Assembly: GCA_026418195.1 (NCBI GenBank)
Contig: JAOABU010000125.1
Span: 1 to 58,012 of the forward strand
Length of the DNA: 58,012 nt
Reading direction: 5' to 3'
Source of the DNA: Spirochaetota bacterium
GTDB taxonomy: Bacteria; Spirochaetota; Spirochaetia; DTKZ01
The notes beneath the pieces were generated by a model. It did not search any database. It had not been told where the DNA came from and was given only the letters and a program-made list of their open reading frames with translations. The position numbers were made by a program, and so were the translations under genes. Positions 2,308-21,200 of this stretch are shown piece after piece (the stretch's first letter is position 1; every line of letters begins with the position of its first letter).

Positions 2308-2750
2308 GTAACAATGGCAACACCTCGAAAGGAAAGATCGTTCTGGGAGTCATTGGGTATGATTGCCATTCGGTGGGAAACAAGATTTTGGAAGTATTTT
2401 TTACCGAAAAAGGGTTCCAAGTGACCAATCTAGGGGTCATGGTAAGTCAGGATGAGTTTATCGATGCAGCCATCGAAACGGCTGCCGATGCAATCCTCGT
2501 CTCTTCTCTCTATGGGCATGGTCTGATTGATTGTCAAGGATTTCGGGATCGATGTGTGGAACGGGGGATGGAGGATATCATCCTCTACGTGGGAGGGAAT
2601 CTAGTGGTAGGGAAAACTCCTTTCTCGGAAGTGGAAGAAAAATTCAAACAGATGGGGTTTGACCGGGTGTTCCCGCCGGATGTGGACCTGGAGGAAGTGG
2701 CACGATTATTGGAGCAGGACATTCATGCACGAAGAACTGGTAAGCATTGA
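2304..2750 (+). CDS. glmS: Glutamate mutase sigma (B12-binding) subunit
   Basis: Small cobalamin-binding subunit of glutamate mutase, which converts L-glutamate to (2S,3S)-3-methylaspartate. The B12 motif D20-x-H22-x-x-G25 is intact, with His22 as the lower cobalt ligand, followed by the S-L and GG elements of the family (SSLYGHG, YVGGN). Length is 148 residues against about 137 in Clostridium, owing to a short N-terminal tail. ATG 2304 overlaps the regulator stop and has AGAGGTG upstream. A GTG at 2298 is possible but less likely. The pathway starts here and continues with glmE and mal. Confidence 0.95.
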
Positions 2751-4305
2751 TATTGGGTCTACCTACACGAAGGGAGCCTTGTTTATCCGCTCGGAAGAGG
2801 GACTCCATTGCGTTCGTAGATCTATAACTCCAACTACACAGGAAGATCTATCCAAGGGGTTTGGAAAGGTGTACACCCAGTTGACAGGTCTACCGTACGA
2901 AGGGGAGCACAGGAAAGATACAAGAAAAGCAAAGGAGACTCCCAGGATTCGGTTTTCCAGCTCTGCTAAAGGGGGATTACGGATTGCTGCGGTTGGTCTG
3001 GTTCCTGATCTGACACTACAAATTGCCCGTTTAGCTGCTTGGTCTGCAGGGGGAAAAGTCGTTGCAGATTCATCCTATAAGCTTCGAAGTGAACAATTAG
3101 CTTCCATCCTTAAAACTTCCCCGGACATTCTTCTTTTTACCGGGGGTACAGATGGGGGAAATGAAGAAACAGTCCTCTGGAATGCGAAGCAACTGGCAAG
3201 CTCTCCCTTCCAGGGAACGATTTTGTATGCAGGGAACGCAGCGATTCGAGGGGAAATTCTCAGGATTCTGGAGGGGAAACGAATAGTAGTAGCCCCAAAT
3301 GTGATGCCACGGGTAGGCGAAATTAGAATCGATGAAACCCGACAAGCTATCCAACGGATTTTTTTAGATACGATTGTAGAAGGAAAAGGGCTGAAACACG
3401 TGCAAGAGTTTTGTGGAACAGAACCTGTTCCAACACCTGCAGCAGTGTTCGATTTAGTAGAAGCGATTGGGATCCATCAGGAGGGATGGGACCGATTCTG
3501 CGTAATTGATCTTGGGGGTGCAACCACGGACGTGTATTCAGTGGGAGAGGCTTTCTGGGGAGAGGAGGGGGTGGTCCTAAAAGGAATACGAGAGCCTCGG
3601 GTAAAGCGTACTGTGGAAGGAGATCTTGGAATTCGGGTAAGCGCAACTACCCTCTGGGAAACAGTTCAGCCCTTTTTCCCTTTCCTAGTACGATGCATCT
3701 GGAACAATTCAATGACAAAAGGACTTCCGGGGTTAGATACATCTACGGGAACCGAATCAACTGTTTTCAAGGAAATACCTACCGAGGAGGAAATCCATCA
3801 GTATGTGGAAAAAGTGACCTTGGATACCTCTTATTTACCTGATTCAGAGAGGGAGAAAAAGATCGATCAGTTTCTAGTACTTTCTGCAGTGACGATTGCT
3901 ACCCTTCGACATGCAGGGGTCCTGGAAGAAACGTACACTCCTGCAGGGCGGATCTTCCTACAATCGGGGAAAGACTTACGACCTGTGAAAGCCATCATTG
4001 GAAGCGGAGGATACCTATCCTTGTTTGACTTAGGTGAACCGCTCAGGAACTTGTTTCACCAGGTTACCATGGGGGTGCAGGAGTCAAGGGAAAGGGACGA
4101 GGAGGGCTCTTTAGTACATCGGGGATTCAGCACCAGCCCCCGTATTCATTTGGTTCCGAAACATCCTGCATACTATCGGGATGCTTCGTATATTTTCCCG
4201 TTACTTGGAAACTATGCGAAAGAGTATCCGAAGGAAGTCTCCAGATTGGCGATCGAGACCTTGGTTCCGGAGTCTAGACTTGAGTTGAATCAGGAGGTGG
4301 GATGA
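2725..4305 (+). CDS. glmL: GlmL/MutL-family glutamate mutase accessory protein
   Basis: ASKHA-fold protein encoded between the two glutamate mutase subunits, as in other methylaspartate clusters. By analogy with diol dehydratase reactivases it is thought to act as a chaperone exchanging damaged cobalamin. Nucleotide-binding signatures are visible: [11 protein letters not shown] near residue 8, [13 protein letters not shown] in the middle and IIGSGGYLS near the C-terminus. The start at ATG 2725 ([11 protein letters not shown]) has GGAG upstream and lies within the end of glmS. The frame is open further upstream but that part is glmS shadow. At 526 residues it is somewhat longer than clostridial homologues as I recall them. 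Confidence 0.93.
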
Positions 4306-5783
4306 AGGGGTTAGAACGGATTCAGAAGGAAGCATTTCTACAGGAACGGGAAACGGTACTGACGAGTTGGCCTACAGGGAAGGATGTGGATCTGAAGGAA
4401 GCGATTGCCTACCAGAAACAGATCCCAGAATCTAAACGGTTTTCCCTTGCCATGGAAGAGGCAAAAAGAACGAAAACTCTTCTTACTCAACCGAGGGCCG
4501 GAGTGGCGTTGCCGGAAGAGCATATCCGGCTACTGAAATACTTAGAGGTAGAAGGGGAGGCAGATCTTCTACCCACTACGATCGATGCCTACACCCGGCA
4601 GAACCGTTACACTGAGGCTCAGGAAGGAATCGAAAAATCCCAGGCAGCAGGAAAATCCCTCCTGAACGGATTCCCTGCAGTAAACCATGGAGTGAAGGTC
4701 TGCCGGCAGGTTACCGAAGCAGTGGCAAGACCTGTTCAAGTTCGACACGGGACTCCTGATGCCCGGTTACTAGCGGAAATTACTCTAGCGGGAGGGTTCA
4801 CCAGCTTTGAAGGTGGTGGTATATCGTACAACATCCCCTATGCGAAGAAGGTCCCCCTAGAACAATCCATAAAATACTGGAAGTATGTGGATGCTTTGGT
4901 GGGGTACTACGAAGAAGAAGGGGTACGGATCAATCGGGAACCTTTCGGACCACTAACAGGAACCCTGGTCCCTCCCTGTATCAGCCATGCGGTAGGGATC
5001 CTGGAGGGTCTCTTTGCCCTGGCACAAGGGGTAAAATCCATCACCTTAGGGTATGGACAGGGAGGGAACCTTATCCAAGATGTGGCAGCGGTTCGAACCT
5101 TACGCCAACTGGCTGAGGAGTATTTCACCTCGGAAGGCTTTACCGATTACCATCTGACTATCGTGTTCCACCAATGGATGGGCGGCTTCCCTGAAGATGA
5201 AGCAAAGGCATTTGCTGTGATTGGTTGGGGCACTGTAGCAGCCGTGTTCTCTGGCGCAGAAAAGGTGATCGTGAAGTCCCCTCATGAGGCCTTTGGGATT
5301 CCTACGAAAGAGGCCAATGCAGAGGGTTTGCGGGCAACACGTCAGTTGATCCACATGCTAACTGACCAATCGATGCCGGAAAGTTCTGAGTTGACTCGGG
5401 AAAGCGACCTGATCCGTGAGGAAGTGAAAGCAATTCTCGATGGAGTATGGAAACTAGGAGAAGGGAATTGGGAGACGGGAACGATCCGGGCCTTTCAATC
5501 GGGAGTGCTGGATGTTCCTTTTGCACCATCCCTGTTCAATTTAGGAAAAATTCTTCCAGCCCGTGATAACGATGGTTTCATACGGATCCTACAACCAGGA
5601 AATGTCCCTTTGGGGAACAAGATTCTAGCTTACCATCGGGAACGCTTGGAAGAAAGGGCCAAGGTAGAGGGCAGACCGGTGAATTTCCAAATGGTGACGG
5701 ATGATATTTACGCCATCAGTAAAGGTCATCTAGTGGGAAGACCAAGGTCTAGCTCAAGTATAAAAATTGGGTCTCAGAGGTAG
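4302..5783 (+). CDS. glmE: Glutamate mutase epsilon (catalytic) subunit
   Basis: TIM-barrel catalytic subunit that pairs with GlmS to carry out the adenosylcobalamin radical rearrangement of glutamate. The arginine claw that grips the substrate carboxylates in the Clostridium enzyme (Arg66, Arg100, Arg149) appears at Arg65, Arg99 and Arg148 here, an offset of one residue. Motifs [16 protein letters not shown] and [12 protein letters not shown] are typical. Length is 493 residues, close to the family's usual 483-485. The start overlaps the glmL stop by four bases (ATGA). Confidence 0.96.
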
Positions 5784-5790
5784 GTTTACA

Positions 5791-7044
5791 ATGAAGATCA
5801 AACGAGTACTGTTCGCTCCAGGCACTTCTGCATTCTTTTTCGATGATCAACGAGCCATCAAAGCAGGAGCGGAACACGATGGGTTCGTTTACATGGGGAA
5901 GCCCGTGACTCCAGGGTTCTCTCGCATACGGGAAGCAGGTCAGAGTATCTCGATCCTTCTGATCCTGGAGGATGGATCGTTAGCAGTGGGAGACTGTGCT
6001 GCCGTGCAGTACTCGGGTGCAGGGGGAAGGGACCCCTTGTTCCTCGCTCCCCAGTACCTTCCCATCTTAGAACAAAAGGTGAAACCTTTCCTGGAAGGAA
6101 GAGAGGTGAGATCCTTCCGAACCTTGGTGGAAGAGTTGAAACCCTTTGAGCAAGGAGCTCAGAGGCTACATACGGCGATCCTGTATGGGTTGACCCAAGC
6201 GCTTTTAGATGCCTGCGCCCAATCTCAGCGCAAACTTATGTGTGAGGTGATCGCTGAAGAGTATGGTTTACCCCTGGTTCTGGAACGGATTCCTATCTTT
6301 GCCCAGACAGGGGATGAACGATACAACAATGTGGACAAAATGATCCTAAAAAAGGTGGATGTCCTGCCTCATGGGTTGATCAACAACATCCCGGACAAAC
6401 TTGGGTATCAAGGGGAAAAACTTCGTGAGTATATTCGGTGGATCGTAAATCGGATCGAAACACTCCGTCCTGGAGAAAAGTATTGTCCCACCCTCCACTT
6501 CGATGTGTATGGCACATTGGGACTTGCCTTTGACGGAAAACTGGATCGTGTCGCTTCCTACATCGCGAGTTTAGAGAGGGATGCCGCAGGCTTACCCCTA
6601 TATATAGAAGGTCCGGTGGATATGGAAGAAAAAGGAAGACAGATAGAAGCGCTCCAACGAATTAAGGAGCGACTTGCAGTCCTTGGTTCTCGGGTAAAGA
6701 TTGTGGCGGACGAATGGTGTAACACCTACGAAGATATCCGGGAATTCACCGATGCTCAGTGCTGTCACATGGTGCAAATAAAGACACCGGATCTTGGAGG
6801 TATAGAGAACATCGTGGAGAGTGTATTGTACTGCAAATCGCATGGAATGGAGGCATATCAGGGAGGAACCTGCAACGAAACGGATGTCTCTGCCCGGGTA
6901 TGTGTCCATATAGCCCTTGCTACCCAACCCCATCGGATGTTGGCAAAGCCGGGGATGGGATTCGATGAAGGGTTTACCATCGTTCGGAACGAAATGGAGA
7001 GAGCGCTGGCTGTTTTGCGGTATCGGAAGGAGGATCGAGAATGA
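5791..7044 (+). CDS. mal: Methylaspartate ammonia-lyase
   Basis: Enolase-superfamily enzyme that removes ammonia from 3-methylaspartate to give mesaconate, the second step of the pathway. Active-site residues fall at the same numbers as in the Clostridium tetanomorphum enzyme: His194, metal ligands Asp238, Glu273 and Asp307, and catalytic Lys331 in VQIKTPDLGG. The protein has 417 residues (413 in Clostridium). The start is ATG 5791, just after the glmE stop. The frame reaches back to 5767, but that part is glmE. Confidence 0.97.
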   Translation: MKIKRVLFAPGTSAFFFDDQRAIKAGAEHDGFVYMGKPVTPGFSRIREAGQSISILLILEDGSLAVGDCAAVQYSGAGGRDPLFLAPQYLPILEQKVKPFLEGREVRSFRTLVEELKPFEQGAQRLHTAILYGLTQALLDACAQSQRKLMCEVIAEEYGLPLVLERIPIFAQTGDERYNNVDKMILKKVDVLPHGLINNIPDKLGYQGEKLREYIRWIVNRIETLRPGEKYCPTLHFDVYGTLGLAFDGKLDRVASYIASLERDAAGLPLYIEGPVDMEEKGRQIEALQRIKERLAVLGSRVKIVADEWCNTYEDIREFTDAQCCHMVQIKTPDLGGIENIVESVLYCKSHGMEAYQGGTCNETDVSARVCVHIALATQPHRMLAKPGMGFDEGFTIVRNEMERALAVLRYRKEDRE

Positions 7045-8576
7045 AGGAAAAGAAGCATCAGAAGGAGAAGGATAAAAAAAACAAAAAAGCAATCCATCGT
7101 AAATCGACTTCTACTGTCCGGGAAACAGAGGAGAGGGAGGGGAGGAAGCAAAAGCTCCTAAATGCCGCTTTGGATCTAGAAAGGCGAGATCCGAAAGAAC
7201 TAGATCGGTTGTTTCCAGAGGGGTTCAAGGTGCTAAGTCCTACAGCTATTCTGGGATATGGATTCCCTCCAGAATCTTTCTTTCGTGGAATCGAGCGAAA
7301 TCCACAGCTGATCGCTGTAGATGGTGGGTCTACGGATCCGGGACCCTACTACCTAGGGGCTGGTAAATCCTTCACTAACCGAGCTTTTGTCAAACGAGAC
7401 CTCCGATTCATGTTGGTAGAAGGACTCAAACACCAGATACCCGTCGTGATAGGTACGGCCGGAGGATCAGGGGCATTGCCCCATCTGGAATGGTGTAAAG
7501 AAATTATCCTTGAGATCGCAAAGGAAGAGGGATTGTCCTTCCAACTGGGCATTATTCCAGCGGATATTCCCAAACCCGTTGTGTTGAAGGCCTTTGAGGA
7601 GGGTGCGCTACGACCCCTTCCGTTCGTTCCTCCCGTGAATCGGCGAGCCATTGAGGAGAGTCCTTATATCGTAGCCCAGTTCGGTGTAGAACCCATCATC
7701 GAAGCCCACCGAAAAGGGTGTGAAGTGATCCTCTGTGGTCGATGCTTTGATCCTGCTGTGTTCGCTGCCTTACCCATCATGTTAGGCTACGATCCGGGGC
7801 TGGCTCTCCACATGGGAAAGATCCTCGAGTGTGCTGCTATTGCCGCTACTCCAGGATCAGGAGCAGATTGTGTTCTGGGAATTCTCAAGGGGGATTGTTT
7901 TATCCTGGAAAGTCTGAATCCGGCTAGGGTCTTTACCAGCGCATCTACTGCTGCTCATACTCTCTATGAGAAATCCGATCCCTATCACCTGTATGGTCCG
8001 GGAGGGATGATTAATTTGGAGAAAACCACCTTTATCGAGTTGGGAGATGGACGGGTAGAGGTTCGGGGAAGTAGGTTTGAACCGATTCAGCCATATACGA
8101 TAAAGCTGGAAGGATCCCGGCCCATCGGTTTTCGTACTATCTGCCTTGCGGGTGTACGAGACCCGATTATGATCCAGGGAATCGATGGTATCCTGGAAGA
8201 AGTGAGAGCCCAGGTTTCATCTCTTATGGAAAAGGAAGGAATTAGGGGTGCCATATATTTTCACCTCTATGGAAAGAATGGGGTGATGGGAAGCCGGGAG
8301 CCTATCCAGAGCTTTGGTCATGAGTTGGGTGTCCTGATCGATGCAATAGGGGAAACTCAGAAGGATGCAGATACCCTCTGTAGTGTCACCCGTTCTACCC
8401 TTCTCCACTATGGGTACAAGGGAAGGATCGCTACAGCAGGAAACCTAGCCTTTCCCTTCTCGCCTTCGGATACCCCTATGGGAGAAGTGTATGAGTTCTC
8501 CGTTTACCACCTGATGGAGATTCCTAGCCAGCGGCTCTTTCCCTTAAAGGTAGAACAAGTAGGAGGAAAGGGATGA
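7041..8576 (+). CDS. AtuA-like (DUF1446-type) protein with lysine-rich N-terminus
   Basis: The body from about residue 55 resembles the acyclic terpene utilization AtuA / DUF1446 family, with glycine-rich motifs AVDGGSTDPGPYYLG and IGTAGGSGALPHLEW. Such genes occur beside methylaspartate genes in other fermenters, but their reaction is not established. Residues 1-50 are an unusual basic, charged extension, about half Lys/Arg/Glu. ATG 7041 has AAGGAGG seven bases upstream and overlaps the mal stop, so the extension is probably translated. An acyl-group or CoA-related role is only a guess. Confidence 0.75.
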   Translation: MKEKKHQKEKDKKNKKAIHRKSTSTVRETEEREGRKQKLLNAALDLERRDPKELDRLFPEGFKVLSPTAILGYGFPPESFFRGIERNPQLIAVDGGSTDPGPYYLGAGKSFTNRAFVKRDLRFMLVEGLKHQIPVVIGTAGGSGALPHLEWCKEIILEIAKEEGLSFQLGIIPADIPKPVVLKAFEEGALRPLPFVPPVNRRAIEESPYIVAQFGVEPIIEAHRKGCEVILCGRCFDPAVFAALPIMLGYDPGLALHMGKILECAAIAATPGSGADCVLGILKGDCFILESLNPARVFTSASTAAHTLYEKSDPYHLYGPGGMINLEKTTFIELGDGRVEVRGSRFEPIQPYTIKLEGSRPIGFRTICLAGVRDPIMIQGIDGILEEVRAQVSSLMEKEGIRGAIYFHLYGKNGVMGSREPIQSFGHELGVLIDAIGETQKDADTLCSVTRSTLLHYGYKGRIATAGNLAFPFSPSDTPMGEVYEFSVYHLMEIPSQRLFPLKVEQVGGKG

Positions 8577-8896
8577 AACGAAACATCCTCGACGTAGCCC
8601 GGGTGATCCGCTCTAAGAACTCAGGCCCTTATGAATTGACGTTGGATATTCTGTTTAAAGATCGGAAATGGTACGACCTCTTTAAAAACCGGAAGATTGT
8701 GAACGAAGAATTGATTTCCCAGCTCTATAAGGTGAAGCAGGATGAAATACTGGGGATCATCTGGTTCGAGCCTGTTTCTGCGGTCAAAATCACCATACGC
8801 CGACCCTGCCCTTCAGGCTCACCTGGGGATACAGACATTTACGGGGCCCAACAACATGCCCCCCTCTTAGGAATCGAGTTCGAATCAGAGGAATGA
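8573..8896 (+). CDS. DUF4387-type small protein, partner of the AtuA-like protein
   Basis: Protein of 107 residues that overlaps the AtuA-like gene by four bases. Small proteins of this kind (DUF4387) usually follow AtuA/DUF1446 genes and may be the second subunit or C-terminal domain of the same enzyme. Conserved-looking features are RSKNSGPYELTLD, a GIIWFEP segment, and a histidine in DIYGAQQHAPLL near the end. No signal peptide or membrane segment is seen. Function is unknown; partnership is inferred from coupling and family context. Confidence 0.7.
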   Translation: MKRNILDVARVIRSKNSGPYELTLDILFKDRKWYDLFKNRKIVNEELISQLYKVKQDEILGIIWFEPVSAVKITIRRPCPSGSPGDTDIYGAQQHAPLLGIEFESEE

Positions 8897-8906
8897 ACGA
8901 TGCCCT

Positions 8907-9863
8907 ATGGATAGAACACCACCACCGCCTTCAGGGCGTTTCGGCTACCACGAGACCCTCATCTATGCTACCTACTACGCCCCTCGGGGGAGGTTGCGCC
9001 TATACATGCTGGGGGGAGAGTTGGCGCGGAGGTACCTGTATCCCACGGATCTGTTGATCGGGATCATCGGTGCAGAGGGTTCGGGAAAGTCTACCCTGAT
9101 ACGAGGACTTTTCCCTGGATTGGAATTGACCAACGATGACGATGGGGTGAACCTTCGACCTACCCCCATTTACTCCTTTGAACCAGAGGATTATTTTGCT
9201 CCTCACACCTTCCACATTGATGTGAGATACGAACTTGCCTTCAAACAAAAGTATGAAATAGCCGAGGCGATCTCCAAGGTGGTATCCCATGGAAGAAGGG
9301 TGATTGTGGAACACTTCGATTTGATCTACGAAGCCTTAGGGTACAATGCTCAGATCATTTTCGGTATCGGGGAGGAAGTGATCGTCAGTAGGCCTTCTGT
9401 ATTCGGCCCTGTTCCAAACCGAATCAAGGACGTGGTGGACCGGACCATCAAGTATCGTTTGATGGCTCACTCTGCGGAGGATCTCACCAGTTATGTGCTC
9501 GCTAGGGATTACCACTATACTCCGCCAGTCCTCCATTCCGACGTGAAACATGGATTCGTGATCAGTTTCCCGGAAAAGCCCACGATACCAATTCAGGAGC
9601 TGGAAGAACGGGTGAAAGAACTCATTCAGCAGGATATTCCTATTTCCATTGCTGGGGAGGACCGTATTCGGTTTGGTACCGATGAAATCTACTGTACTGG
9701 AATAAGGACCCATGTAAAATCTACTGGACAGATTGAAAATTTTCGCCTTCTAAAGAACTACAAGTATGACCCTATACGCAGAGAGTACCTACTGGTAGGT
9801 ATTGTAGGAAGAAAAGAGATCGTGGGCTTCGAAGAAATCAACGAGCTTCTCGAAACGGATTGA
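8907..9863 (+). CDS. P-loop protein of methylaspartate clusters
   Basis: A Walker A motif, GAEGSGKST, lies near residue 52, followed by a nucleoside-kinase-like region with FTFHIDVRYE-type and IVEHFD motifs. The C-terminal part (about residues 170-230: MAHSAEDLTSY, YHYTPPVLHSDVKHGF) resembles the 'second additional domain' of alanyl-tRNA synthetase, and similar proteins lie in glutamate-fermentation clusters. An ATP-dependent role is inferred from the P-loop. No clear ribosome site precedes ATG 8907, so the start is uncertain. No substrate can be named. Confidence 0.65.
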   Translation: MDRTPPPPSGRFGYHETLIYATYYAPRGRLRLYMLGGELARRYLYPTDLLIGIIGAEGSGKSTLIRGLFPGLELTNDDDGVNLRPTPIYSFEPEDYFAPHTFHIDVRYELAFKQKYEIAEAISKVVSHGRRVIVEHFDLIYEALGYNAQIIFGIGEEVIVSRPSVFGPVPNRIKDVVDRTIKYRLMAHSAEDLTSYVLARDYHYTPPVLHSDVKHGFVISFPEKPTIPIQELEERVKELIQQDIPISIAGEDRIRFGTDEIYCTGIRTHVKSTGQIENFRLLKNYKYDPIRREYLLVGIVGRKEIVGFEEINELLETD

Positions 9864-9879: not shown

Positions 9880-9906
9880 CCTACAGATGTGGGAGGCGAA
9901 AATAGA

Positions 9907-11562
9907 ATGACTAAAATCCCAGGAGAGGACCCCTTTACCCATGCAAGGTACCGGAAAGTGGAGGGAGATTACGTTCGAACTCGAATCATCGATGGGTGTT
10001 CGTTCTTACAGATAGATCCACTGGGAATTCAGAAATTAGCAAAAGAGGCATTCCAGGATGTCTCCTTTTTCCTTCGTCCCTCGTTCTTGGAGAAACTCAA
10101 CAGGATCCTTTTAGATCCAGAAGCTTCAGCAAATGATCGGTATGTGGCCGAAACGCTTCTTCAGAACGCTGTAGTAGCAGCCGAAGGATTTCTTCCCTTG
10201 TGTCAGGATACGGGCACTGCCACAGTGATCGCGTGGAAAGGGGATCGTGTGTGGGTTCAACCCCTGGTGAATGGTGGAATAGGCTCTGTGGGCGAGTCAA
10301 ATCTTCCACAGAGCTCCCTGGATGAGGAAGCCCTTTGGAAGGGGATAGAGGAAGTGTATCGTACTCGATACCTTCGCTACTCTCAGATTGCCCCCATCAC
10401 TATGTTCGAAGAAGTGAACACAGGAACGAACCTCCCTCCTCAGATCGACATCTATGCATCGGAAGGAACCGAGTACCGGTTTCTCTTCATTGCCAAGGGA
10501 GCGGGAAGTGCGAACAAGACATCCTTTTTTCAGGAATCGCGAGCGTTGCTGGAACCCGAGAAACTCCGTTCCTTCCTTCGGGAAAAAGTTCGGGCGTTAG
10601 GTACGGCTGCTTGTCCGCCCTATCGGTTGGCTGTGGTAATTGGAGGCCTTTCTCCAGAGATGAATCTGAAAGTCCTGAAACTAGCCACTACCGGTCTGTT
10701 GGATAGGTTGCCCGAACAGGGAGATGGGAAAGAAATGATGTACCTGGATCGAGAATGGAGCGGTATCCTTCTCCAATTGGCGCAGGAATCCGGTTTAGGA
10801 GCTCAGTTTGGGGGGAAGTACCTGGCACTAGATGCTCGGGTAATTCGAATAGCCCGGCATGCGGGAGCTTGTCCGGTGAGTATCGGGGTTTCCTGCAGTG
10901 CGGATCGGAACATTCTAGGTCGAATTACTCAGGAGGGAATGTTCCTAGAGCAGCTGGAAAAGAATCCTTCTCGCTTTCTGAAGGACTTAGGTACCCAACG
11001 AGTCGATCGATCCATTGGTATAAAAATAGATCTGGATCGAAGTCTCGATGAGGTGCGTAAGGATCTTTCCAAACTCCCAGTTGGGAGCCTTGTCCTGCTT
11101 TCAGGCCCCCTCGTAGTGGCTCGGGACATCGCTCATGCACGATTCTTCAAACGCCTCCAGGAAGGGAAAGGACTACCCGATTACCTCTATCGGTATGGAG
11201 TTTACTATGCAGGTCCTGCAAAGACACCTCCGGGATATCCCATCGGTAGCTTTGGCCCTACTACGGCTCAACGGATGGACAGCTACCTAGAGGCTTTTAT
11301 GCGTGAAGGAGCTTCCCTTGTAACCTTGGCAAAGGGGAATCGGGCAAAAAGCACTGTGGAATTATGCCGAACATTTGGGGGGTTCTACCTTGGAACAATT
11401 GGAGGAGCTGCTGCGTTACTGGCTAAAGAACACATCGTCTCTTCTGAAGTGCTGGATTATCCAGATCTGGATATGGAAGCGGTACGATTGATTTGGGTGA
11501 AGGATTTTCCTGCTTTCATTCTGATCGACGACAAGGGGAACGATCTGTACGGCTTGATCTAG
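9907..11562 (+). CDS. Class I fumarase-type hydratase, probable mesaconase
   Basis: Iron-sulphur hydratase with alpha and beta parts in one chain of 551 residues. Three cluster cysteines can be proposed: Cys99 (LCQDTGT), Cys236 (AACPPYR) and Cys330 (VSCSADRN), with Cys322 nearby as an alternative. The beta part carries GPLVVARDIAHARF, YAGPAKTPPGYPIGSFGPTT and the MAKGNR-like LAKGNRA. Class I fumarases hydrate fumarate and often mesaconate. Placement after mal argues for mesaconate to (S)-citramalate. The ATG at 9907 follows GGGAGGCG; the upstream GTG at 9889 is not favoured. Without assay, ordinary fumarase activity cannot be excluded. Confidence 0.88.
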   Translation: MTKIPGEDPFTHARYRKVEGDYVRTRIIDGCSFLQIDPLGIQKLAKEAFQDVSFFLRPSFLEKLNRILLDPEASANDRYVAETLLQNAVVAAEGFLPLCQDTGTATVIAWKGDRVWVQPLVNGGIGSVGESNLPQSSLDEEALWKGIEEVYRTRYLRYSQIAPITMFEEVNTGTNLPPQIDIYASEGTEYRFLFIAKGAGSANKTSFFQESRALLEPEKLRSFLREKVRALGTAACPPYRLAVVIGGLSPEMNLKVLKLATTGLLDRLPEQGDGKEMMYLDREWSGILLQLAQESGLGAQFGGKYLALDARVIRIARHAGACPVSIGVSCSADRNILGRITQEGMFLEQLEKNPSRFLKDLGTQRVDRSIGIKIDLDRSLDEVRKDLSKLPVGSLVLLSGPLVVARDIAHARFFKRLQEGKGLPDYLYRYGVYYAGPAKTPPGYPIGSFGPTTAQRMDSYLEAFMREGASLVTLAKGNRAKSTVELCRTFGGFYLGTIGGAAALLAKEHIVSSEVLDYPDLDMEAVRLIWVKDFPAFILIDDKGNDLYGLI

Positions 11563-11571
11563 GAGGAAGGG

Positions 11572-12912
11572 ATGCTTCTTCGAGACTACTGCATTCCTGA
11601 AGGAGTGCATTTCATTGAAAGCCGAACCAAACAGGGAGCCTTCGAAGAACTATCTAAAAAATTTGCTGAGGTGTATGGGAACATCGATGCAGATGAGTTA
11701 TTGAAAAGAATCTTGGAACGGGAATCGGTTCTTTCCACTTGGATTGCTTCAGGAATCGCGATTCCCCATGCAATTGTACCGGGGTTCGGCCCTTCTAGAA
11801 TTCTTCTTGGTATCAGTAAGGAAGGGATTCCTTACGGAGCACCGGATGAACGGCCTGTTCATCTGTTGATCCTGATCGTTGGGGATGGAATTGAGCACTT
11901 GCAGGTGCTCCGGCAGGTAGCGATCCGGTTAGAGACCCCTCAGGTGTACGAACAGATCGTATTTGCCCATCATCCCATAGAAGCATACCGTGCCTTTGTA
12001 GGAAAGGGCGGAGCAGAACTTTCCCAGCAGGAAAAAGAACTCCCGATGGATCGGGAAGGAAGGTTTTTCCTGTCCCAAGCGTGTTGGGACCAGGGCTTGA
12101 TTCTCGCAGAACGGATAGAGGCTTCCCATATTTTCGTCCATGCCGATTGTCTTGAGGAATTGGACTTTTTCCCCAAGGACTTGCCGAGAAAAATCTGTTT
12201 TGTAGCGGTGAGTCGGGTGGAACGGATTCGGGAACAGTTCCCGGATCATCCGGTGGTACAAATTCCCTTCAAGGGGGTGACGCGGGCAAATCAGGTAGAA
12301 CTCTCCATCATCTTTGCCCTTTCCCGGGGATTGCTTCGGCAGGAAGAACGAGTGGTGAGCATTTTCGGCGTTCCCTTCTCCGGTATCCTGGATTCGGTGC
12401 GGGTAACGGATATTGGTCGAGAGTTCAAGGTGTTCTTTGCCTTTGGGAAGGATAAGGAAGGGCAGGATTTAGAGAACCAGGTACTGATGCGAGTGATAGA
12501 AATAGCGGGAGAATTAGCAGAGGAGGGCCGGGAAGGAAAACCTTCTGGGACGATCTTTGTCCTTGGGGATTATGAGCAGGTCCAACATCACTGTCAGCAG
12601 ATGATCATCAACCCCTTTGCAGGGTATCCGGAGTCAGACCGAAACATACTGGATCCCAGTTTGAAGGAAACTATAAAGGAACTTTCCAAACTAGACGGTG
12701 CTTTTGTGATCCGCGGGAATGGAGTGATCGTATCCGCGGGAACCTACCTTCGTAGCCGAGTACCTCCTGCGGAGTTACCCTCTGGGTTAGGAGCACGGCA
12801 CACTGCGGCTGCCGCCATCACGGTAGTGAGTCGGGCGGTAGCCGTAGTGCTTTCAGAATCTACTCGCCGCGTGAGTATCTTCAAAAGCGGCGAGCGGATT
12901 ATGGTTCTGTAA
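11572..12912 (+). CDS. PTS EIIA - PK_C-like - diadenylate cyclase fusion
   Basis: Three-part protein of 446 residues. Residues 1-150 are a fructose/nitrogen-type PTS EIIA domain with phospho-acceptor His66 in GIAIPHAIVP. Residues 165-290 resemble a pyruvate-kinase C-terminal-like domain as found before archaeal-type cyclases (GLILAERIEASHIFVH, TRANQVELSI, SGILDSVRV). Residues 300-446 are a DAC domain with D375-G-A and L-G-A-R409-H-T, the two motifs that bind ATP and metal to make c-di-AMP. The third motif residue is Thr instead of the usual Arg. The start has AGGAGGAAGGG and lies nine bases after the mesaconase gene, so the two are cotranscribed. Confidence 0.85.
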   Translation: MLLRDYCIPEGVHFIESRTKQGAFEELSKKFAEVYGNIDADELLKRILERESVLSTWIASGIAIPHAIVPGFGPSRILLGISKEGIPYGAPDERPVHLLILIVGDGIEHLQVLRQVAIRLETPQVYEQIVFAHHPIEAYRAFVGKGGAELSQQEKELPMDREGRFFLSQACWDQGLILAERIEASHIFVHADCLEELDFFPKDLPRKICFVAVSRVERIREQFPDHPVVQIPFKGVTRANQVELSIIFALSRGLLRQEERVVSIFGVPFSGILDSVRVTDIGREFKVFFAFGKDKEGQDLENQVLMRVIEIAGELAEEGREGKPSGTIFVLGDYEQVQHHCQQMIINPFAGYPESDRNILDPSLKETIKELSKLDGAFVIRGNGVIVSAGTYLRSRVPPAELPSGLGARHTAAAAITVVSRAVAVVLSESTRRVSIFKSGERIMVL

Positions 12913-14389
12913 CTTTTTTTAAACTCTCGGCAATCTTTTCTACTTGTCGTTTGGAAACGAGGAACTCCACTACCCCTTCCCTAGATAGAGCATAGAAATC
13001 CCGATTGAAGGGGAGGTACTGTACCCGTTGGATTTTCCCCGCTGGATCGTTCAGCTGGTACTCGAGGGTGACTTCCGCCTTTCCCGTTGCTTTTCCGCCC
13101 GGAGGAATCTCCGCTTCTATAAGGAGGCCAATACAGTTCTGGTACAAATCCTTGAACTTTTCTGCTTTTACTTCTTTCCCGTCGAATAGGAAGGTTTCTT
13201 TCGTTTCTTCCTTCTTAGTCTCTTTACCGTCCTTATCCTTTTCCGTAACAGTGACTTTTTCCCGTTTGATCTCTCCGATGTGTCGGGAACCTAAATAGTC
13301 GATGGAAAGTTTGTCTACCTTATCGATGTTGATGATAAACGCGAACTTATCAATCAAGTCAAAAGGTTTTACGGTAATATCGGAGCGAATGTCCTCAATA
13401 AGGAATACGGTGGGGGAGTCCTTCAATTTAGCAAACACTCGGTTCTTTTCCCATTCAGGTCCAGTTTTAGCCGCTTCTTTGCCTAGGAAGAGATGGAAAA
13501 CCACATCTTTCTGTATCTCTTTCTCTACTTCCTTTTCCCCTTCTTTTTCCTTTACCTTCTCCTTCACTTTAGCCTTCACATAGATTTCGTACTCAGGCTT
13601 ATCCAGTCCATAGGGGGTGAGGGATGTGGGTTTGTCGCTCACGAAATCCTTAATCCGAAGTTTACCCAACGCAGACACTAGCTTATTGAAGGCTTGGGAA
13701 TCAACCCCTCGGGGAAGCTTATAGGGAGAGGTAATGATATGGGTTGTGAATGAGGTTTCTTGTACCCCGGTCCTCGGTTTCGGCTCGATCGAAATACGAG
13801 TGTTTCCATAAACAAGGTTCAGGCGTTCCACCTCATCCGGATTGAAGGAGGGGAGTTTTCGATCTCGAAAATCAGTTAAGGACACATAGAGCCGTTCCCC
13901 AGGATAGGAAGGAAGGATGTACACCTTTGGCTCGCCAGCTTTCATCCCATAGTATCCCATCCCGGTGGGTGTTTTTTCTCCTCCCAAAAGTTCCACCTTG
14001 CTCCCGTCTTCCAAGGTCAGGATCACCCTTGCTTTGGGGTTGGAGAGTCCGAAGGGCCCCAGATCCTTGGGGTTTTCATCGGCTACCCGTTCATACCGCA
14101 TGTTACAGAGGGACCAAAGGATACTTTTTATCTCTTCCTGGTCCAGTTGTACCCCGAGAGCTTCGGCGGGGGAAGTCCACACTTCTCCCTTTCGCTCCAG
14201 AATGACCCCTTTTAAGGGGAGTTCTATACGGGTCACCTTTTTCGTATCGATTTCCGTCATATAAACGGATTTATACTGCTCCGCCTGTTTGTCGATCTGA
14301 TGTCTCTTGTAAGCTGTAGCCCCAAAGTATCCGCCGATAAGAATCACCAATGCAATGCCCGCGATCATGAGGTTCTTCTGCCTGGACAT
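12899..14389 (-). CDS. DUF4340-domain membrane-anchored protein
   Basis: An N-terminal membrane anchor (residues 8-24) is followed by a large extracytoplasmic region with repeated DUF4340-type modules (KVTRIELPLKG, YGLDKPEYEIYV, YFGAT). Around residue 255 is a run of K/E repeats (VKEKVKEKEGEKEVEKE), and a second K/E-rich stretch (VTVTEKDKDGKETKK) lies near residue 375. Such proteins often close operons for Gld-like ABC exporters, as here. ATG 14389 has GGGAGGTG upstream. The 3' end overlaps the converging EIIA-DAC gene by 14 bases with no terminator between them. Function is unknown. Confidence 0.8.
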   Translation of the reverse strand: MSRQKNLMIAGIALVILIGGYFGATAYKRHQIDKQAEQYKSVYMTEIDTKKVTRIELPLKGVILERKGEVWTSPAEALGVQLDQEEIKSILWSLCNMRYERVADENPKDLGPFGLSNPKARVILTLEDGSKVELLGGEKTPTGMGYYGMKAGEPKVYILPSYPGERLYVSLTDFRDRKLPSFNPDEVERLNLVYGNTRISIEPKPRTGVQETSFTTHIITSPYKLPRGVDSQAFNKLVSALGKLRIKDFVSDKPTSLTPYGLDKPEYEIYVKAKVKEKVKEKEGEKEVEKEIQKDVVFHLFLGKEAAKTGPEWEKNRVFAKLKDSPTVFLIEDIRSDITVKPFDLIDKFAFIINIDKVDKLSIDYLGSRHIGEIKREKVTVTEKDKDGKETKKEETKETFLFDGKEVKAEKFKDLYQNCIGLLIEAEIPPGGKATGKAEVTLEYQLNDPAGKIQRVQYLPFNRDFYALSREGVVEFLVSKRQVEKIAESLKKVTEP

Positions 14390-14407
14390 ACCCACCTCCC
14401 GCTTTAG

Positions 14408-15874
14408 TTACAGATGGCGTCGCTTGAGCCAGACAATGAGCCCTGATGCGAACAGGCTTATGGGGATGATAGCTGTGAAGAGCAAGCCGAAAATGATTAC
14501 CTGTAGGCCGGAAAGTCTCATGGGAAGGGTGATGAGGCTCTTGGAGCGCACAGAGATGGACTCAGGCCTATCCTGAAGCCAGGTAAGGGCGTTCATGAAG
14601 AGGTCAAAGTTCCCCTGGATCTGCCCGAAAAGTCCTAGCGGCTCCAAAAGGGTACCGCTACCAAGAACCACGATCCGGGTTTCCTTTCCCTCTTTCCCTT
14701 CTATCGGTTCCTTGATGGCGAATCCAAGGGTGATAGGCCCTTTCTTGTCCGTTGCAGACAAACTAGGAGAATTGTTGTTTAGGTCCACCCGTAGGAAAGA
14801 ATCCTTGGAAGAGGTTAAGAGGGGTTCCATTTCGATGGTACGGCGTTTTAGTTCAAGGGTTTTCACTCCCTGGGCAAACTGTAGTACTACCGGAACATTA
14901 TTCTCCTTCAAAGGCCGAACGATCTCGTGAAGGCTGAACTCGGGGATCACATGGAAGGGGTTGCCCGTGTTGTAGCTCTTGTTCATCTCCACCACTACAC
15001 CGAAGTCGAAATCCACTCCATAGCTAGCGAGGATTTCCTTCAAGTTTTTCGGATTACCACTCTGAAAGTCTGCCATCACGAGGAGCCGACCCCCTTTCTG
15101 CAGGTAGCTTAGGATACGGTCCCGCTCCGCAGGGGTTAGGTCCTGTTTAGGGTTGTTGATTACCAAAAGACCAGCGTCCTCGGGAACGTCCGACTGTAAG
15201 AGGGTTAGCTGCTTATAGGTAAAGTTCTCGCGTTCGATCACCGGTTTCATCTGTAGGTCAAAGAGGGCTTTTTCCTTGTGGCCGGTGAGATCGTATATTA
15301 CGGGCGTAGTACCGGATGTTACGTAGAGGAGGGTTCCTGTAACCCGTTTCTCTACGGAGAAGCCCGTGATTTCGGGGTTCTGGAAGTTCATCCAGTTGAT
15401 CTCGTACAGATCAACCTGAGGAATTACCTTAAATCCTTTTTCCCCTTCAATGATGAGGGACCCTTTCTCGATCCCCTTTTTGGTCTTATCGTATTTAGCG
15501 ATGAGACCGGGATTCTTATCCGGATCCACAACTTCCAGACGAATGTTTTTGTTCTTCGCTACGTACTTATCCAGTACTTCCTTCACCTGCCGGGACTCTT
15601 TCCCCGGTTCCCAAAGACCGTAGATAGTCACCGGAGACTTGATTCCTTCCAGGACTTTCAAGGTCTGTTCTGATAGAGAAAAGAGTTTGTTCCTTGTAAG
15701 GTCTATCTGGGGTGAGAACTGTTGAAGGATCAAGTTCAACAGCATCAATCCAATGACTAGGGAAAGGGTTAGAAGGGCTGCGTACCCTCCGTACCGAACC
15801 CGTTTGGTTTGCAGGGATTCTAGAAACAGAGTCTTTAGATTCATGTTTTTTACACTCAGGTTTTTAATCTTCAC
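14408..15874 (-). CDS. GldG-like ABC exporter auxiliary protein
   Basis: Has a membrane segment near residues 32-52 (LLTLSLVIGLMLLNLIL) and a second at the C-terminus (VIIFGLLFTAIIPISLFASGLIVWL). Between them is a large domain of the GldG/uncharacterised ABC-system type (FSLSEQTLKVLEGIKSPVTIYGLW, VINNPKQDLTPAERDRILSYLQKGGRLLVM). It starts at GTG 15874 with AAGGAGG upstream. It lies between the permease and the DUF4340 gene. In Bacteroidetes GldG works with GldA and GldF in gliding; here the substrate is unknown. Confidence 0.85.
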   Translation of the reverse strand: MKIKNLSVKNMNLKTLFLESLQTKRVRYGGYAALLTLSLVIGLMLLNLILQQFSPQIDLTRNKLFSLSEQTLKVLEGIKSPVTIYGLWEPGKESRQVKEVLDKYVAKNKNIRLEVVDPDKNPGLIAKYDKTKKGIEKGSLIIEGEKGFKVIPQVDLYEINWMNFQNPEITGFSVEKRVTGTLLYVTSGTTPVIYDLTGHKEKALFDLQMKPVIERENFTYKQLTLLQSDVPEDAGLLVINNPKQDLTPAERDRILSYLQKGGRLLVMADFQSGNPKNLKEILASYGVDFDFGVVVEMNKSYNTGNPFHVIPEFSLHEIVRPLKENNVPVVLQFAQGVKTLELKRRTIEMEPLLTSSKDSFLRVDLNNNSPSLSATDKKGPITLGFAIKEPIEGKEGKETRIVVLGSGTLLEPLGLFGQIQGNFDLFMNALTWLQDRPESISVRSKSLITLPMRLSGLQVIIFGLLFTAIIPISLFASGLIVWLKRRHL

Positions 15875-15885
15875 GGCCTACCTCC

Positions 15886-16749
15886 TTAAACCCAACGTTG
15901 CTTTTCGATCAGCCGGACCGTAAGGAAGAGAAAAAGACCGGTAAAGGATAGGTAGTACACAAGACTATCTACCTTCAGCAATCCCATGGAGAAGTTCTCG
16001 TACCGTTTGTTGAGGGAAAACCAGGAGAAGAACTTCCGCATGAATCCAATGAAAACACCCTTTTCGATAAAGTACGCTGCGGCAATGATGATAGCACCGA
16101 TCAGGAGCACAGCTACTGTAATATAGAGGTTCTTTGTATTGAGGTAGATGTACCCACAGAGGGATAACACTAGAAGCCCGGCAAAGATCACTCCTGCGAC
16201 CAGTTCAACGGGAAGGGAGTTACTGATGGGATCAATCAGCCAGATCAGGAGAAGGGAAAAGAAGGAAACCAGAGCGGAGGTCAGCTGGTTCTCTGTGCCC
16301 GCGGATACGAAAACTCCTACTGAAATGTAGGAGGCTCCCAGGAAGATGAATCCGATATAGGCTCCCAGGGTTTCCCAAAAGGAAAGGTCACCGAAAAATC
16401 CTACTACTAGGGCGTACATTACCGTAATGGCAAGGGTAATCAGGTACACGATAAAGGCAGCGAGGAATTTCCCCAGCACGATCTCCGGAATCGAAATGGG
16501 GCTGGTAAGAAGCAGCTGGTCGGTCCTCTGTCTCTTTTCTTCGGAGAAAAGCCTCATCGTGAGAAGGGGCACTGCGAATAGATAGATAAAGAGGATTCCC
16601 CCTAAAAAGCCGGTATACTGAGAACTGCGGGTGATCAGATTTCCGAAGGTAAAGAAAACTCCCGCTACCAGTAGGAAGAATCCCATGTAGATGTATCCAA
16701 TTGGAGTGAGAAAATAACTTTTCAGTTCGCGCTTGAGTATAGCCATCAT
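15886..16749 (-). CDS. ABC-2 type permease, GldF-like
   Basis: Integral membrane protein of 287 residues with about seven hydrophobic segments. The N-terminus (ILKRELKSYFLTPIGYIYMGFFLL) and the motif RLFSEEKRQRTDQLLLTSPISIPEIVLGKF are typical of ABC-2 permeases linked to GldA-type ATPases. It overlaps the ATPase gene by four bases, so the two are translationally coupled. It would form the membrane channel of the exporter. Confidence 0.9.
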   Translation of the reverse strand: MMAILKRELKSYFLTPIGYIYMGFFLLVAGVFFTFGNLITRSSQYTGFLGGILFIYLFAVPLLTMRLFSEEKRQRTDQLLLTSPISIPEIVLGKFLAAFIVYLITLAITVMYALVVGFFGDLSFWETLGAYIGFIFLGASYISVGVFVSAGTENQLTSALVSFFSLLLIWLIDPISNSLPVELVAGVIFAGLLVLSLCGYIYLNTKNLYITVAVLLIGAIIIAAAYFIEKGVFIGFMRKFFSWFSLNKRYENFSMGLLKVDSLVYYLSFTGLFLFLTVRLIEKQRWV

Positions 16750-17699
16750 ACCTTCGCTACCTCCTCTTCTTTCGTGGTCAGGTGCAGGAAGATTTCTTCC
16801 AGAGTCATATCGAGGGACCGCATCATGAGGATGGGAAGTCCTGCACTACCGAGAGCTTTGGAAATATCCCTACGAATGTCTTTATCCTTATCCGATTCCA
16901 CAATGAGTTCCACGGTGCCGGGTTCCTGAGATTCCTTAAAGGAGAGATTCTTGACAGTTGGGATTTTCCGGAGCACCTCTTCCACCTGTTGAACGCTACC
17001 ATCCACACGGAGTTGCAGTTGGCTTCCTCCCAGCAAGCGTTTGGCCAGGTTTTCTGGGGTGTCGTCTGCCACGATCTTGCCCTGATTGATGATAAGGACT
17101 CGTCTACAAACCGCGCTCACTTCGGGAAGGATGTGGGAGCTAAGGATCACGGTGTGGGTTTTCCCAAGATCCTTGATCAACGATCGGATTTCCAGGATCT
17201 GTTTGGGATCCAACCCTGCGGTAGGTTCATCCAGAATCAGGATGTCGGGCTTGCCGATCATGGCCTGGGCGAGCCCTACCCGCTGCTTGTACCCTTTGGA
17301 TAGGTTCTTCACGAGCCTGCCTGCCACGTCGGTGATTCCTACCGTGTGCATCACCTCATCGATCCGTTTCCCTAATTCTTGTTTGGGCACCTTTTTGATT
17401 TCTCCGGCGAATTGGAGGTATTCTCGAACAGTCATTTCCGGATACAGGGGTGGGTTTTCCGGAAGATACCCAATTCGTTTTTTCACCTCCAGCGGGTGTT
17501 CCAGGATGTTCATCCCGTCCACCGTGACGGTGCCTTCGGTAGAAGACAGGTAACCGGTGAGCATGTTCATCGTTGTGGTTTTTCCAGCCCCATTGGGACC
17601 AAGGAATCCAACGATTTCTCCCCGCTCGATTTTGAAGGTTGCGTGATCCACTGCGGTATGCGGGCCGTACCGTTTCACTAGATCTTTCGCTTCTATCAC
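16746..17699 (-). CDS. ABC transporter ATP-binding protein, GldA-like
   Basis: Cytoplasmic ATPase subunit. Walker A GPNGAGKTT (about residue 34), signature LSKGYKQRVGLAQAM, Walker B ILILDEPTAGLDP and the H-loop ILSSH are intact. The C-terminal 90 residues form the accessory domain usual for ABC-2 exporters. It starts with GTG 17699 after an AGGAGGTG site and is followed by the permease, GldG-like and DUF4340 genes. It energises export of an unidentified substrate. Confidence 0.92.
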   Translation of the reverse strand: MIEAKDLVKRYGPHTAVDHATFKIERGEIVGFLGPNGAGKTTTMNMLTGYLSSTEGTVTVDGMNILEHPLEVKKRIGYLPENPPLYPEMTVREYLQFAGEIKKVPKQELGKRIDEVMHTVGITDVAGRLVKNLSKGYKQRVGLAQAMIGKPDILILDEPTAGLDPKQILEIRSLIKDLGKTHTVILSSHILPEVSAVCRRVLIINQGKIVADDTPENLAKRLLGGSQLQLRVDGSVQQVEEVLRKIPTVKNLSFKESQEPGTVELIVESDKDKDIRRDISKALGSAGLPILMMRSLDMTLEEIFLHLTTKEEEVAKV

Positions 17700-17728: not shown

Positions 17729-18175
17729 TCAGCTCAATAGGAGTGACAGAACATGTTCGGTAGTTCGAGAGTTCCGAAGCTTTTCTCTTTTCTCCGCGTT
17801 TTTTACCACTTGAACGATTTGCGCAAGAATATGTAGGTACTCTTTCTGGTTATCGTCCGGGCCACCGATGAGGAACACGATGTGAACGGGCTGTCCATCA
17901 ATGGATTCCCAATCGACCCCTTTTTCGACAATTCCGAGACAGATGAAGAATGAATCGATACTTTTTACCTTCGCATGGGGCACTGCAACCCCTAGTCCTA
18001 TTCCCGTGCTCACTATGAGTTCTCGGGCCGCTACTGCCTCGGCGAATCGTAACTTATCCTTCACTTTACCCGCAGCATGTGCAGCTTCGATCAAGAGTTC
18101 GAGTACACGGCCCCTATCGTGCGTATCCTGAATGAACAGGATACAATCTTTAGAAAGATACTTTGTAATGTCCAT
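17729..18175 (-). CDS. PTS EIIA, nitrogen/fructose type
   Basis: Single EIIA-2 domain of 148 residues with phospho-acceptor His in GVAVPHAKV near residue 67. No EIIB, EIIC, HPr or EI gene is nearby, so a regulatory, PtsN-like role is more likely than sugar uptake. It precedes the ABC exporter by 29 bases on the same strand and probably shares its transcript. No ribosome site is obvious before the ATG. It resembles the EIIA half of the DAC fusion at 11572 and the EIIA at 50449. Confidence 0.88.
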   Translation of the reverse strand: MDITKYLSKDCILFIQDTHDRGRVLELLIEAAHAAGKVKDKLRFAEAVAARELIVSTGIGLGVAVPHAKVKSIDSFFICLGIVEKGVDWESIDGQPVHIVFLIGGPDDNQKEYLHILAQIVQVVKNAEKREKLRNSRTTEHVLSLLLS

Positions 18176-18251: not shown

Positions 18252-18280
18252 TTGAAAACCGAAAGCTATTATGATACACT
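18252..18280 (+). promoter_or_regulatory. Promoter of the WD40-caspase gene
   Basis: TTGAAA (18252-18257) and TACACT (18275-18280) are separated by 17 bases. The start of transcription would be at or next to ATG 18288, giving a leaderless transcript. Confidence 0.5.
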
Positions 18281-18287
18281 TTCCTTT

Positions 18288-21200
18288 ATGTATACTACCT
18301 ATCATCGTTCTTTTTTTCAGATTCTGCTGACAGTTCTGATCTTGGGATCTCTTACAGTGGCCCATGGATTCTGCCAGGAATCACCCATCGCCTGGGATTC
18401 GATGGGAACCAATACGCCCTTCCAGATGTACCTGCAGACCCGGCATGAGAGTGTCTGTTCCCTTTCCATGAGTCGGGACGGCAAGTTCTTCATCACCATG
18501 AACGAGCATAGTTACAAGATCTGGAGGACCGACGATGGAGTACTGCTCCGCACTGTGGTTTGCGCTGCCACCCAGGGCGGGTTTTCTTCGGATGGGAATT
18601 ACGTAATTCTCTGGTCGGGGGGGTCTTTCTTTTACATGGGAGAACCCGGGTACTATACATCCCTGCAGGTTCGAAAGTCGAACGATGGTTCCCTTGTGCG
18701 GGAATTCAACCCAAAGATACCTGATGGGGGAAGAGCGGTCGTGTTCTGCCTGGATCCGAATGGTTCCCGAGTCGCATTGGGGTCCGAGAAAGGGGGAATC
18801 TTTCTGTACGATCCTGTGAAGGGCGTGCTTCTGCGGGAGTTTCGGAACGCGCATGAGGGGGGAATCGAAAGACTCCATTGGACAAAGGATGGGAAACTCA
18901 TGTCCGTCCATAAACAGATCCTCAAAGTCTGGGATGTTGCAGAAGGCAAGAACATCAAGAGTTACACGCTGAATGTCAGTTCTATCGAGGTTTTTATTTC
19001 GGATACCCTGGTTCTGGTGAAAAAGGATTCCGGTACCGTGGGACTGAACCTCGAGGACGGATCCATCCGGTATACGGTATCTTTAGGAGATTACAGCCGT
19101 TTGATAGTCAGTCCGGACGGAACCCTATCTGCCGCAAAGGTAGGCAATCGGATGATCGTAGTATTCGACGCGCAGACGGGAAAGATTAAGACCAAGCTCC
19201 GGGATTTCAGCTCTTCCACCTATGGGTTCGCCCATGCCTTTACCCCGGATGGGAAACGACTCCTGGCAGCTCATGATCCGATGCAGGATGGATCCACCCT
19301 GTCCCTGTGGGATGTTACGGAGGGAAAGAAGCTAGAATCCTTCAATCCCATACGTCTTGGATCGACTAAAGCCCTTGCGTTCCATGAGGGGGAAAAGCTC
19401 CTGGCAGTAGGGACCGATGAAGGGGTGGTGCTCTGGGACCTGAAAGAACTGCGACCCATCCATACATTCACGCCTCCCGGCACCTGGGTGATCGAAAAGA
19501 TTCGATTCTCTGAGGATGGAAAGAAGCTGTGGGTCCTCACTCCCTGGTCTTTAAGTATCTATGATCCCCGGAGTGGGAATCGACTGTTTTTGGATAAAGT
19601 TCCTCCCGCCACTCCGAATCAACCAACTTCGAGTCCCCTGTACAGCATGCTTCTGGCAGAGGACCATTCCGTAGTGGCGAAGAAGTACTACCGTGCGGAG
19701 GAAAACAAATGGATCATCGAGATCTATCAGTTACCCGGCATGACGCAGGTTCGGAAGCTGGAACTGGATTCCAGAGTCTTCAATGTAACGTCCGTAAGTT
19801 CGGCGGGAAAGTATCTGATTCTCGAGAACGAGAAATACCTTCAAAAAAAAGAACCCAAATACGCAGTCATGGAGAGCTCGAGCGGGAAATTCGCTTTTAT
19901 ACCGAATTATTACAGTATTTCAGCAGAACATAAACCCGTGTTCAATTCCAAAGGGAACCTGGTAAGCTACCCATATCGAGAACCTAATAAGTATACGAAT
20001 GAACTGGCTCTGTTCAACCTGGAACGTGAGACGGTAGAAAAGAGAATTCCTCTTACGAAAAGTATGTATCAGACATTTCAGGGTGGCTTTTTCTCCCCCG
20101 GGCCCTGGATTCTAGGGAATGATGGGGATAACCAGGATCAGGTGGTGTTGGTGGATAAGGGGAATCCTAATCGGACGAAGGCGATCCGGTATGGGGATCC
20201 TATGGTTCTCAAGGAAGCGCTGAGTAGCTCGGACGGGAAGAGGGTATTCGTGTGTGGGGAAGGGGTTACCCATATCCTGGAAGTGGAAACGGGGAAGCGG
20301 GTGAGTCTTGTGAGTTACGGATCCGAATGGGTGGTGTACACGGATGAGGGGTATTTTGACAGTTCGAGGAACGCGGGGGACATCATCAAGATGGTGAAGG
20401 GGATGACGGCGTGGAACATCGAGCAGTTTGCCTACCGGTACAACCGGCCGGACCTGATTTTGAATAGACTGGGAACGGGGGAACCGCGGGTGGTGAAGGA
20501 ACTGTACGCTCAGTTTCAGAGGAGGCTTAGGAAGGCGGGCTTAAGGGAGGATCAGCTGAAGGAGGAGTTTCATCTGCCGGAGGCCCGGATCCAACGGGTA
20601 GAGAGGAAGGGGGAGGATGTGGCTCTTACGGCGGAGCTTTTCGACAGTCGGTATGAGCTACGGCGGTACCAGGTGTACGTGAACGATGTGCCGTTACTGG
20701 GGGCAGTAGGGAAGGAGGTAACGGGGAGAGGGGTGGTGGTGTCGGAGAGGGTGAAGTTGGCGCCGGGGAGGAACAAGATCGAGGTGTCGGTGGTGAACGC
20801 TCAGGGGGTGGAGTCCTACCGGGCGGTGCGGTACGAGAGTTTGGAGGAGGAGCGGGCTGGGGACCTCTACTTTCTGGGGTTTGGGGTATCCCGGTACAGG
20901 GATGGGAGGTTGAACCTGCAGTATGCGGACAAGGACGTGAAGGACTTGGAGGGGATGTTTCGCCGGATGGAAGGGAAGGAGTACGAGAAGGTGAAGGCGC
21001 ACGTGTGGGTGAACGAAGGGGTGACGAAGCAGGCGCTGGAGGAGGCGAAGAAGATTCTTTTAGGGGGGAAGGTGGAGGATACGGTGGTGCTGTTCATTGC
21101 GGGGCATGGGATGCACGACACGGACAGGGATCTCACGTACTACTATCTGAGTCATGGGGCGGAGGTGAACAATCTGAAGGGGACCTGTATTGATTTTGCC

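Follow-up and report, generated by a model that had tools for sequence, protein, structure and literature searches.

Gene content of the locus

The window analyzed here, the whole stretch of 58,012 nucleotides from a Spirochaetota bacterium, carries at positions 11572-12912 (+) a gene with an ATG start which encodes a 446 aa fusion of EIIA, DacZ_P and diadenylate cyclase (DAC) domains, as identified from the open reading frame, Pfam matches and homologues. Directly upstream lies a class I fumarate hydratase/mesaconase-like gene (9889-11562, +; Pfam and NCBIfam), preceded by genes of the glutamate (methylaspartate) pathway (2298-9863, +) which adjoin the fusion in the genus of the window only. 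Assigned gene by gene with Pfam and NCBIfam, the upstream operon reads GlmS, GlmL, GlmE, methylaspartate ammonia-lyase (MAL), an AtuA-like protein, a DUF4387 protein, a P-loop protein and the class I hydratase, so that the glutamate operon noted in the initial annotation was correctly recognized. The described nine-base spacing between the mesaconase-like gene and the fusion was likewise borne out by the reading frames, the former ending at 11562 and the latter, co-directional, starting at 11572. A strong ribosome-binding site of the fusion gene, TAGGAGGAAGGG, overlaps the hydratase-gene stop. Sites returned by a promoter and terminator scan were no more frequent than in shuffled sequence. The P-loop protein of the operon (8907-9863, +) has a tail resembling the alanyl-tRNA-synthetase additional domain and was matched by none of the NCBIfam models.

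Downstream, genes for an ABC transporter, among them those for GldG-like and DUF4340-like proteins (named by eye), form a cassette at 12899-17699 (-). It is convergent with the DAC gene, overlaps it by 14 bases and is kept adjoining in most of family f1. A stand-alone EIIA of the PtsN/FruA-like kind with a GVAVPHA motif is encoded at 17729-18175 (-), 5 kb from the fusion; it is 29% identical to the EIIA domain of the fusion and is kept near the fusion in the genus. It is followed at 18252-21710 (+) by a gene for an 1152-aa protein with a signal-like N-terminus, in which a WD-repeat-like region precedes a caspase-like domain (GHGMHDTDRD, DTCESGD), again recognized by eye.

Domain architecture and relationship to DacZ

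The N-terminal domain (11617-11991, +; aa 16-140) was matched by PTS_EIIA_2 (PF00359) with 70.9 bits and E=1.5e-19, far above the Pfam cut-off, and the C-terminal domain (12517-12894, +; aa 316-441) by DAC (PF02457) with 69.9 bits against a cut-off of 27 (E=1.8e-19). An AlphaFold2 model of the fusion had a mean pLDDT of 85; a Foldseek search placed its N-terminal part on the IIA-Ntr fold (1a6j; TM to target 0.87, E=1e-10) and its C-terminal part on DisA/CdaA. The middle domain (12043-12447, +; about aa 158-292) is of the PK_C-like or DacZ_P type. While the DacZ_P match in the window protein itself was sub-threshold (E=0.035), DacZ_P was matched in 16 of 29 aligned family members and PK_C itself in 4 of the 29. 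As Pfam, the family DacZ_P/PK_C matches and the predicted structure agree, the three-domain architecture proposed earlier (EIIA, PK_C-like, DAC) is right, and the residues singled out with it, His66, D375-G-A and R409-H410, were all confirmed in the sequence.

With respect to class assignment, residues 202-444 were 33-35% identical to haloarchaeal DacZ (Haladaptatus) by tblastn (35% over 247 positions, E=2e-34), and NCBIfam model NF041371 for haloarchaeal DacZ matched the fusion with E=4e-37 and 128 bits, below its equivalog cut-off of 430 bits. By these scores the fusion is a relative of haloarchaeal DacZ and not an equivalog, and the description that fits it best is that of a DacZ/CdaZ-type diadenylate cyclase bearing an extra EIIA domain.

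Active site of the DAC domain and a second cyclase

Residue conservation was taken from an alignment of 107 rows representing many phyla. D375, G376, R409 and H410 were invariant in 107/107 rows, and A377 of the D375-G-A catalytic motif (12694-12702, +) was replaced once, by Ser (A in 106/107). The GREG, NPF.G and TxKE motifs were invariant or nearly so, and SxST nearly so. The third residue of R409-H410-T411 (12796-12804, +) was variable across the family and mostly Ala (A 67, T 20, R 7, V 5 of the 107 rows), and was His in two haloarchaeal proteins of Haladaptatus annotated as DacZ. The Thr found here in place of the last Arg of the RHR motif had been regarded as a reason to doubt activity; because residue 411 is variable in the family and is His in the two haloarchaeal proteins, it carries no weight against activity and that doubt is unfounded for this family. 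DacZ of H. volcanii makes c-di-AMP (PMC6741144), and the fusion protein very probably does so too.

The same genome also encodes a canonical CdaA (locus L001) with an RHR motif and an adjoining CdaR-like gene, and CdaA was found in all near-complete Spirochaetia genomes which carry the fusion. On this co-occurrence, the fusion is therefore classed as an accessory soluble DAC, a second cyclase beside CdaA. With respect to targets, the genome encodes a protein that bears two TrkA_C domains and is a possible c-di-AMP target; a search of the genome for c-di-AMP riboswitches found none.

Phosphotransferase genes and conservation of His66

The genome encodes Enzyme I (EI), an HPr with NRAGIHARPAAL (His15) and AKSIMG (Ser46), an HprK with GESGVGKS beside HPr, and several further EIIA-like proteins. 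The HPr and HprK genes lie side by side at 1480-3039 of locus L150, together with a ribosome hibernation factor-like gene. No EIIC of PF02378, the EIIC family searched, was found in the genome, and for this reason its PTS looks like a regulatory relay reporting PEP/pyruvate and energy state rather than a sugar uptake system.

His66, the predicted phospho-acceptor in a GIAIPH motif (codon 11767-11769, +), was conserved in 96/107 aligned rows and retained in all but ten of the EIIA-bearing homologues examined. The active-site residues R50 and H66 were kept in almost all rows, E51 and P65 were also strongly retained, and the second EIIA His (position 109) varied. An apparent loss of His66 at locus L039 was an artefact of a wrong start, the full reading frame carrying IAMPHAQ.

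EI was present in all 35 Spirochaetia genomes with the fusion, which is uninformative because EI is almost universal there. Among the genomes behind 64 further loci EI was not detected in three (L119, L133 and L137), and both of these which bear an EIIA had lost the phospho-His while the DAC motifs remained largely intact. In Wallbacteria (L119, fusion at 611-1924) the GIAIPH His loop was deleted and the genome also lacked HPr; in Puniceicoccales (L133, fusion at 7875-9233) His66 was replaced by Tyr and the genome kept HPr. The association of EI loss with His66 loss gave a one-sided Fisher p of about 0.01 over all sampled genomes including Spirochaetia (p=0.085 in a first set that was enriched for His-less proteins and 0.025 with a second set added), a correlation resting on two draft genomes of uncertain completeness and on a test that ignores phylogeny.

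Gln replaced His66 in seven members of a supported, mostly Fibrobacterota clade (L103, L104, L112, L115, L116, L120 and L134) despite the presence of EI, and at one further locus of the Fibrobacterota clade, L125, the residue was neither His nor Gln, again with EI present. At several of the Gln66 loci the fusion was flanked by an acyltransferase-like gene on its upstream side and by a glucose-6-phosphate isomerase-like gene immediately downstream. Because this clade has EI, phosphorylation cannot be required of every member of the family. The co-existence in one Chitinispirillum genome of a Gln66 copy (L104) and a His66 copy (L082) suggests that some paralogues have been freed from phosphorylation.

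Distribution of the fusion and the glutamate operon

The fusion was found in 35 of 98 Spirochaetia genomes, spread over many families. A scan of a species-level genome collection also located it in Fibrobacterota, Verrucomicrobiota, Kiritimatiellota, Planctomycetota, Hydrogenedentota, Wallbacteria and a genome titled Deltaproteobacteria. The DacZ_P-DAC part was found without EIIA in Thermodesulfobacteriota and one planctomycete, and in Thermosulfurimonas (L137) the corresponding DAC occurred without any EIIA. No gene beside the fusion loci was conserved across phyla. A search for another conserved neighbour yielded lineage-local genes only: Fibrobacterota have the isomerase-like and acyltransferase-like genes, Opitutales a NuoA-like gene and family f18 a HAD-like gene (all named by eye).

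The initial annotation had further proposed that c-di-AMP output is coupled by design to glutamate consumption, which would make the fusion a dedicated part of the glutamate operon, tuning potassium/glutamate osmotic balance while glutamate is being consumed. The arrangement itself gives some ground for this proposal: the genes are co-directional with a nine-base gap, and the order GlmS-GlmL-GlmE-MAL-AtuA-DUF4387-P-loop-Fum-DAC was kept in two genomes of the genus (G001, G002) and partly seen in a third (G003). Moreover, the methylaspartate pathway ends in pyruvate, which would be expected to shift PTS phosphorylation. However, the full order was kept in this genus only. In sister genera the DAC gene follows the Fum gene, with a gap of 4 bases at L053 and 386 bases at L054, but no glutamate mutase adjoined it; no GlmE was found in the genome of L054, and in another sister-genus genome (G004) GlmE lay on other contigs than the Fum-DAC pair. 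Across the 98 Spirochaetia, GlmE occurred in 6/35 genomes with the fusion and 6/63 others (p=0.34, not significant), or in 1/26 against 6/63 outside the family of the window (p=0.67), and no glutamate genes were found near the remaining fusion loci outside the genus. As a general rule, the glutamate-operon design was ruled out by these scattered phyla, unrelated neighbors and GlmE counts, and for the window protein itself we consider it improbable.

The glutamate operon adjoins the fusion in this genus alone and does not define the role of the protein; because EIIA-DAC fusions recur in many phyla, the adjoining glutamate genes are a local arrangement and not a design. The two may still be co-expressed in the genus of the window. 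Of the earlier interpretation, the architecture, the conserved phosphorylatable His and the occurrence of EI, HPr and HprK genes alongside it were upheld, while the coupling to glutamate was not, the survey of neighborhoods having found the fusion scattered through many phyla with glutamate genes adjacent in one genus.

Proposed role of the fusion protein

The reading we favor, and hold to be reasonably probable, is that of an accessory DacZ/CdaZ-type cyclase with a fused IIA-Ntr-like EIIA, in which phosphorylation of His66 by the PTS would raise or lower c-di-AMP output. Enzyme I would charge HPr from PEP, and HPr~P would most likely phosphorylate His66 of the EIIA domain. The phosphorylation state, together with a further ligand of the PK_C-like domain, would alter the pairing of DAC domains and so set the amount of c-di-AMP made. 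The domains, His66, the DAC residues, EI/HPr/HprK, CdaA and the TrkA_C protein are read directly from sequence; from these we infer the enzyme activity, the phosphorylation of His66, its effect and the direction of that effect.

Two other readings of the protein itself have to be weighed against phosphorylation-tuned synthesis. Unphosphorylated IIA-Ntr acts through protein contact, and the EIIA domain could similarly be a structural or protein-interaction module, unphosphorylated in most members, with the PK_C-like domain as the real sensor. The Fibrobacterota clade, whose members carry Gln66, keep the DAC site intact and come from genomes with EI, would fit such a module, as would the EIIA-less relatives that share the middle and DAC domains; the strong retention of R50, E51, P65 and H66 outside the Gln66 clade, and the loss of the His in both EIIA-bearing genomes without EI, argue against it, and we regard it as unlikely, if less so than the dedicated glutamate role. 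Signalling could also run in reverse, with a catalytically dead DAC domain sensing c-di-AMP or ATP and acting on the EIIA, and CdaA as the sole source of the messenger. A separate CdaA is indeed present in this and every near-complete fusion-bearing Spirochaetia genome, and the Pfam DAC score of the fusion is half that of CdaA. Against this stand the invariant DGA and RH residues, the near-invariance of GREG, NPF.G and SxST across phyla and the activity of the homologous H. volcanii enzyme (PMC6741144), and a dead DAC domain appears very improbable.

Extended to the family, phosphorylation-tuned synthesis would make these proteins a widespread one-protein switch in which a phospho-His in cis lets a PTS phosphorelay govern the synthesis of c-di-AMP directly, such that PEP/pyruvate sets a potassium/osmotic messenger, with the His lost where EI was lost and mostly replaced by Gln in one Fibrobacterota clade. 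For this broader claim we judge the chances to be about even. EIIA is an input domain of known chemistry, and the signals acting on DACs through their N-terminal domains are largely open. If phosphorylation changes output, it would provide a direct link from carbon and energy state (PEP/pyruvate) to c-di-AMP, and the natural His-to-Gln and His-loop-deletion variants are ready-made controls for the PTS input.

Comparison with known systems

Galperin 2023 (J Bacteriol 205:e0002323) reportedly sets out a family scheme of DACs. Pfam already holds DacZ_P, DacZ_T and DacZ_A models, which it labels 'probable sensor domains', and PMC12974146 cites a survey from 2023 that covers DAC architectures. Following Corrigan and Gruendling 2013, PMC6741144 lists the bacterial classes DacC (Alkalispirochaeta, Desulfacinum, Syntrophobacter) and DacD (Opitutae, Lacunisphaera); their likeness to the present proteins is by taxa only, these overlapping with the range of the EIIA-DAC fusion family and its EIIA-less relatives. 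Given the Pfam models, the survey and these classes in overlapping taxa, the EIIA-DacZ_P-DAC architecture has probably been catalogued already. A literature search, outside which fell Galperin 2023, Corrigan 2013 and He 2020, found no paper that connects EIIA with DACs, nor any experimental or comparative study of PTS control over this architecture.

Among characterized cyclases, DacZ/CdaZ (DacY) of archaea and some bacteria resembles the fusion in having an N-terminal domain of PK_C fold followed by a C-terminal DAC (PMC6741144; NF041371). The fusion differs in its extra N-terminal PTS EIIA and in sharing its genome with CdaA, whereas DacZ/CdaZ is the sole DAC. CdaA, the membrane DAC found with CdaR and GlmM, shares the DAC catalytic motif but is set apart by transmembrane helices, by an RHR motif and by its partner CdaR, and is a separate gene in the same genome. 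With PTS EIIA-Ntr (PtsN) and EIIA-Mtl/Fru (PF00359), the EIIA of the fusion has in common the fold, the RE...STxxxxGIAIPH active-site pattern and, in most family members, the second His at position 109; unlike these proteins, it is joined to a cyclase and has no attached EIIB or EIIC.
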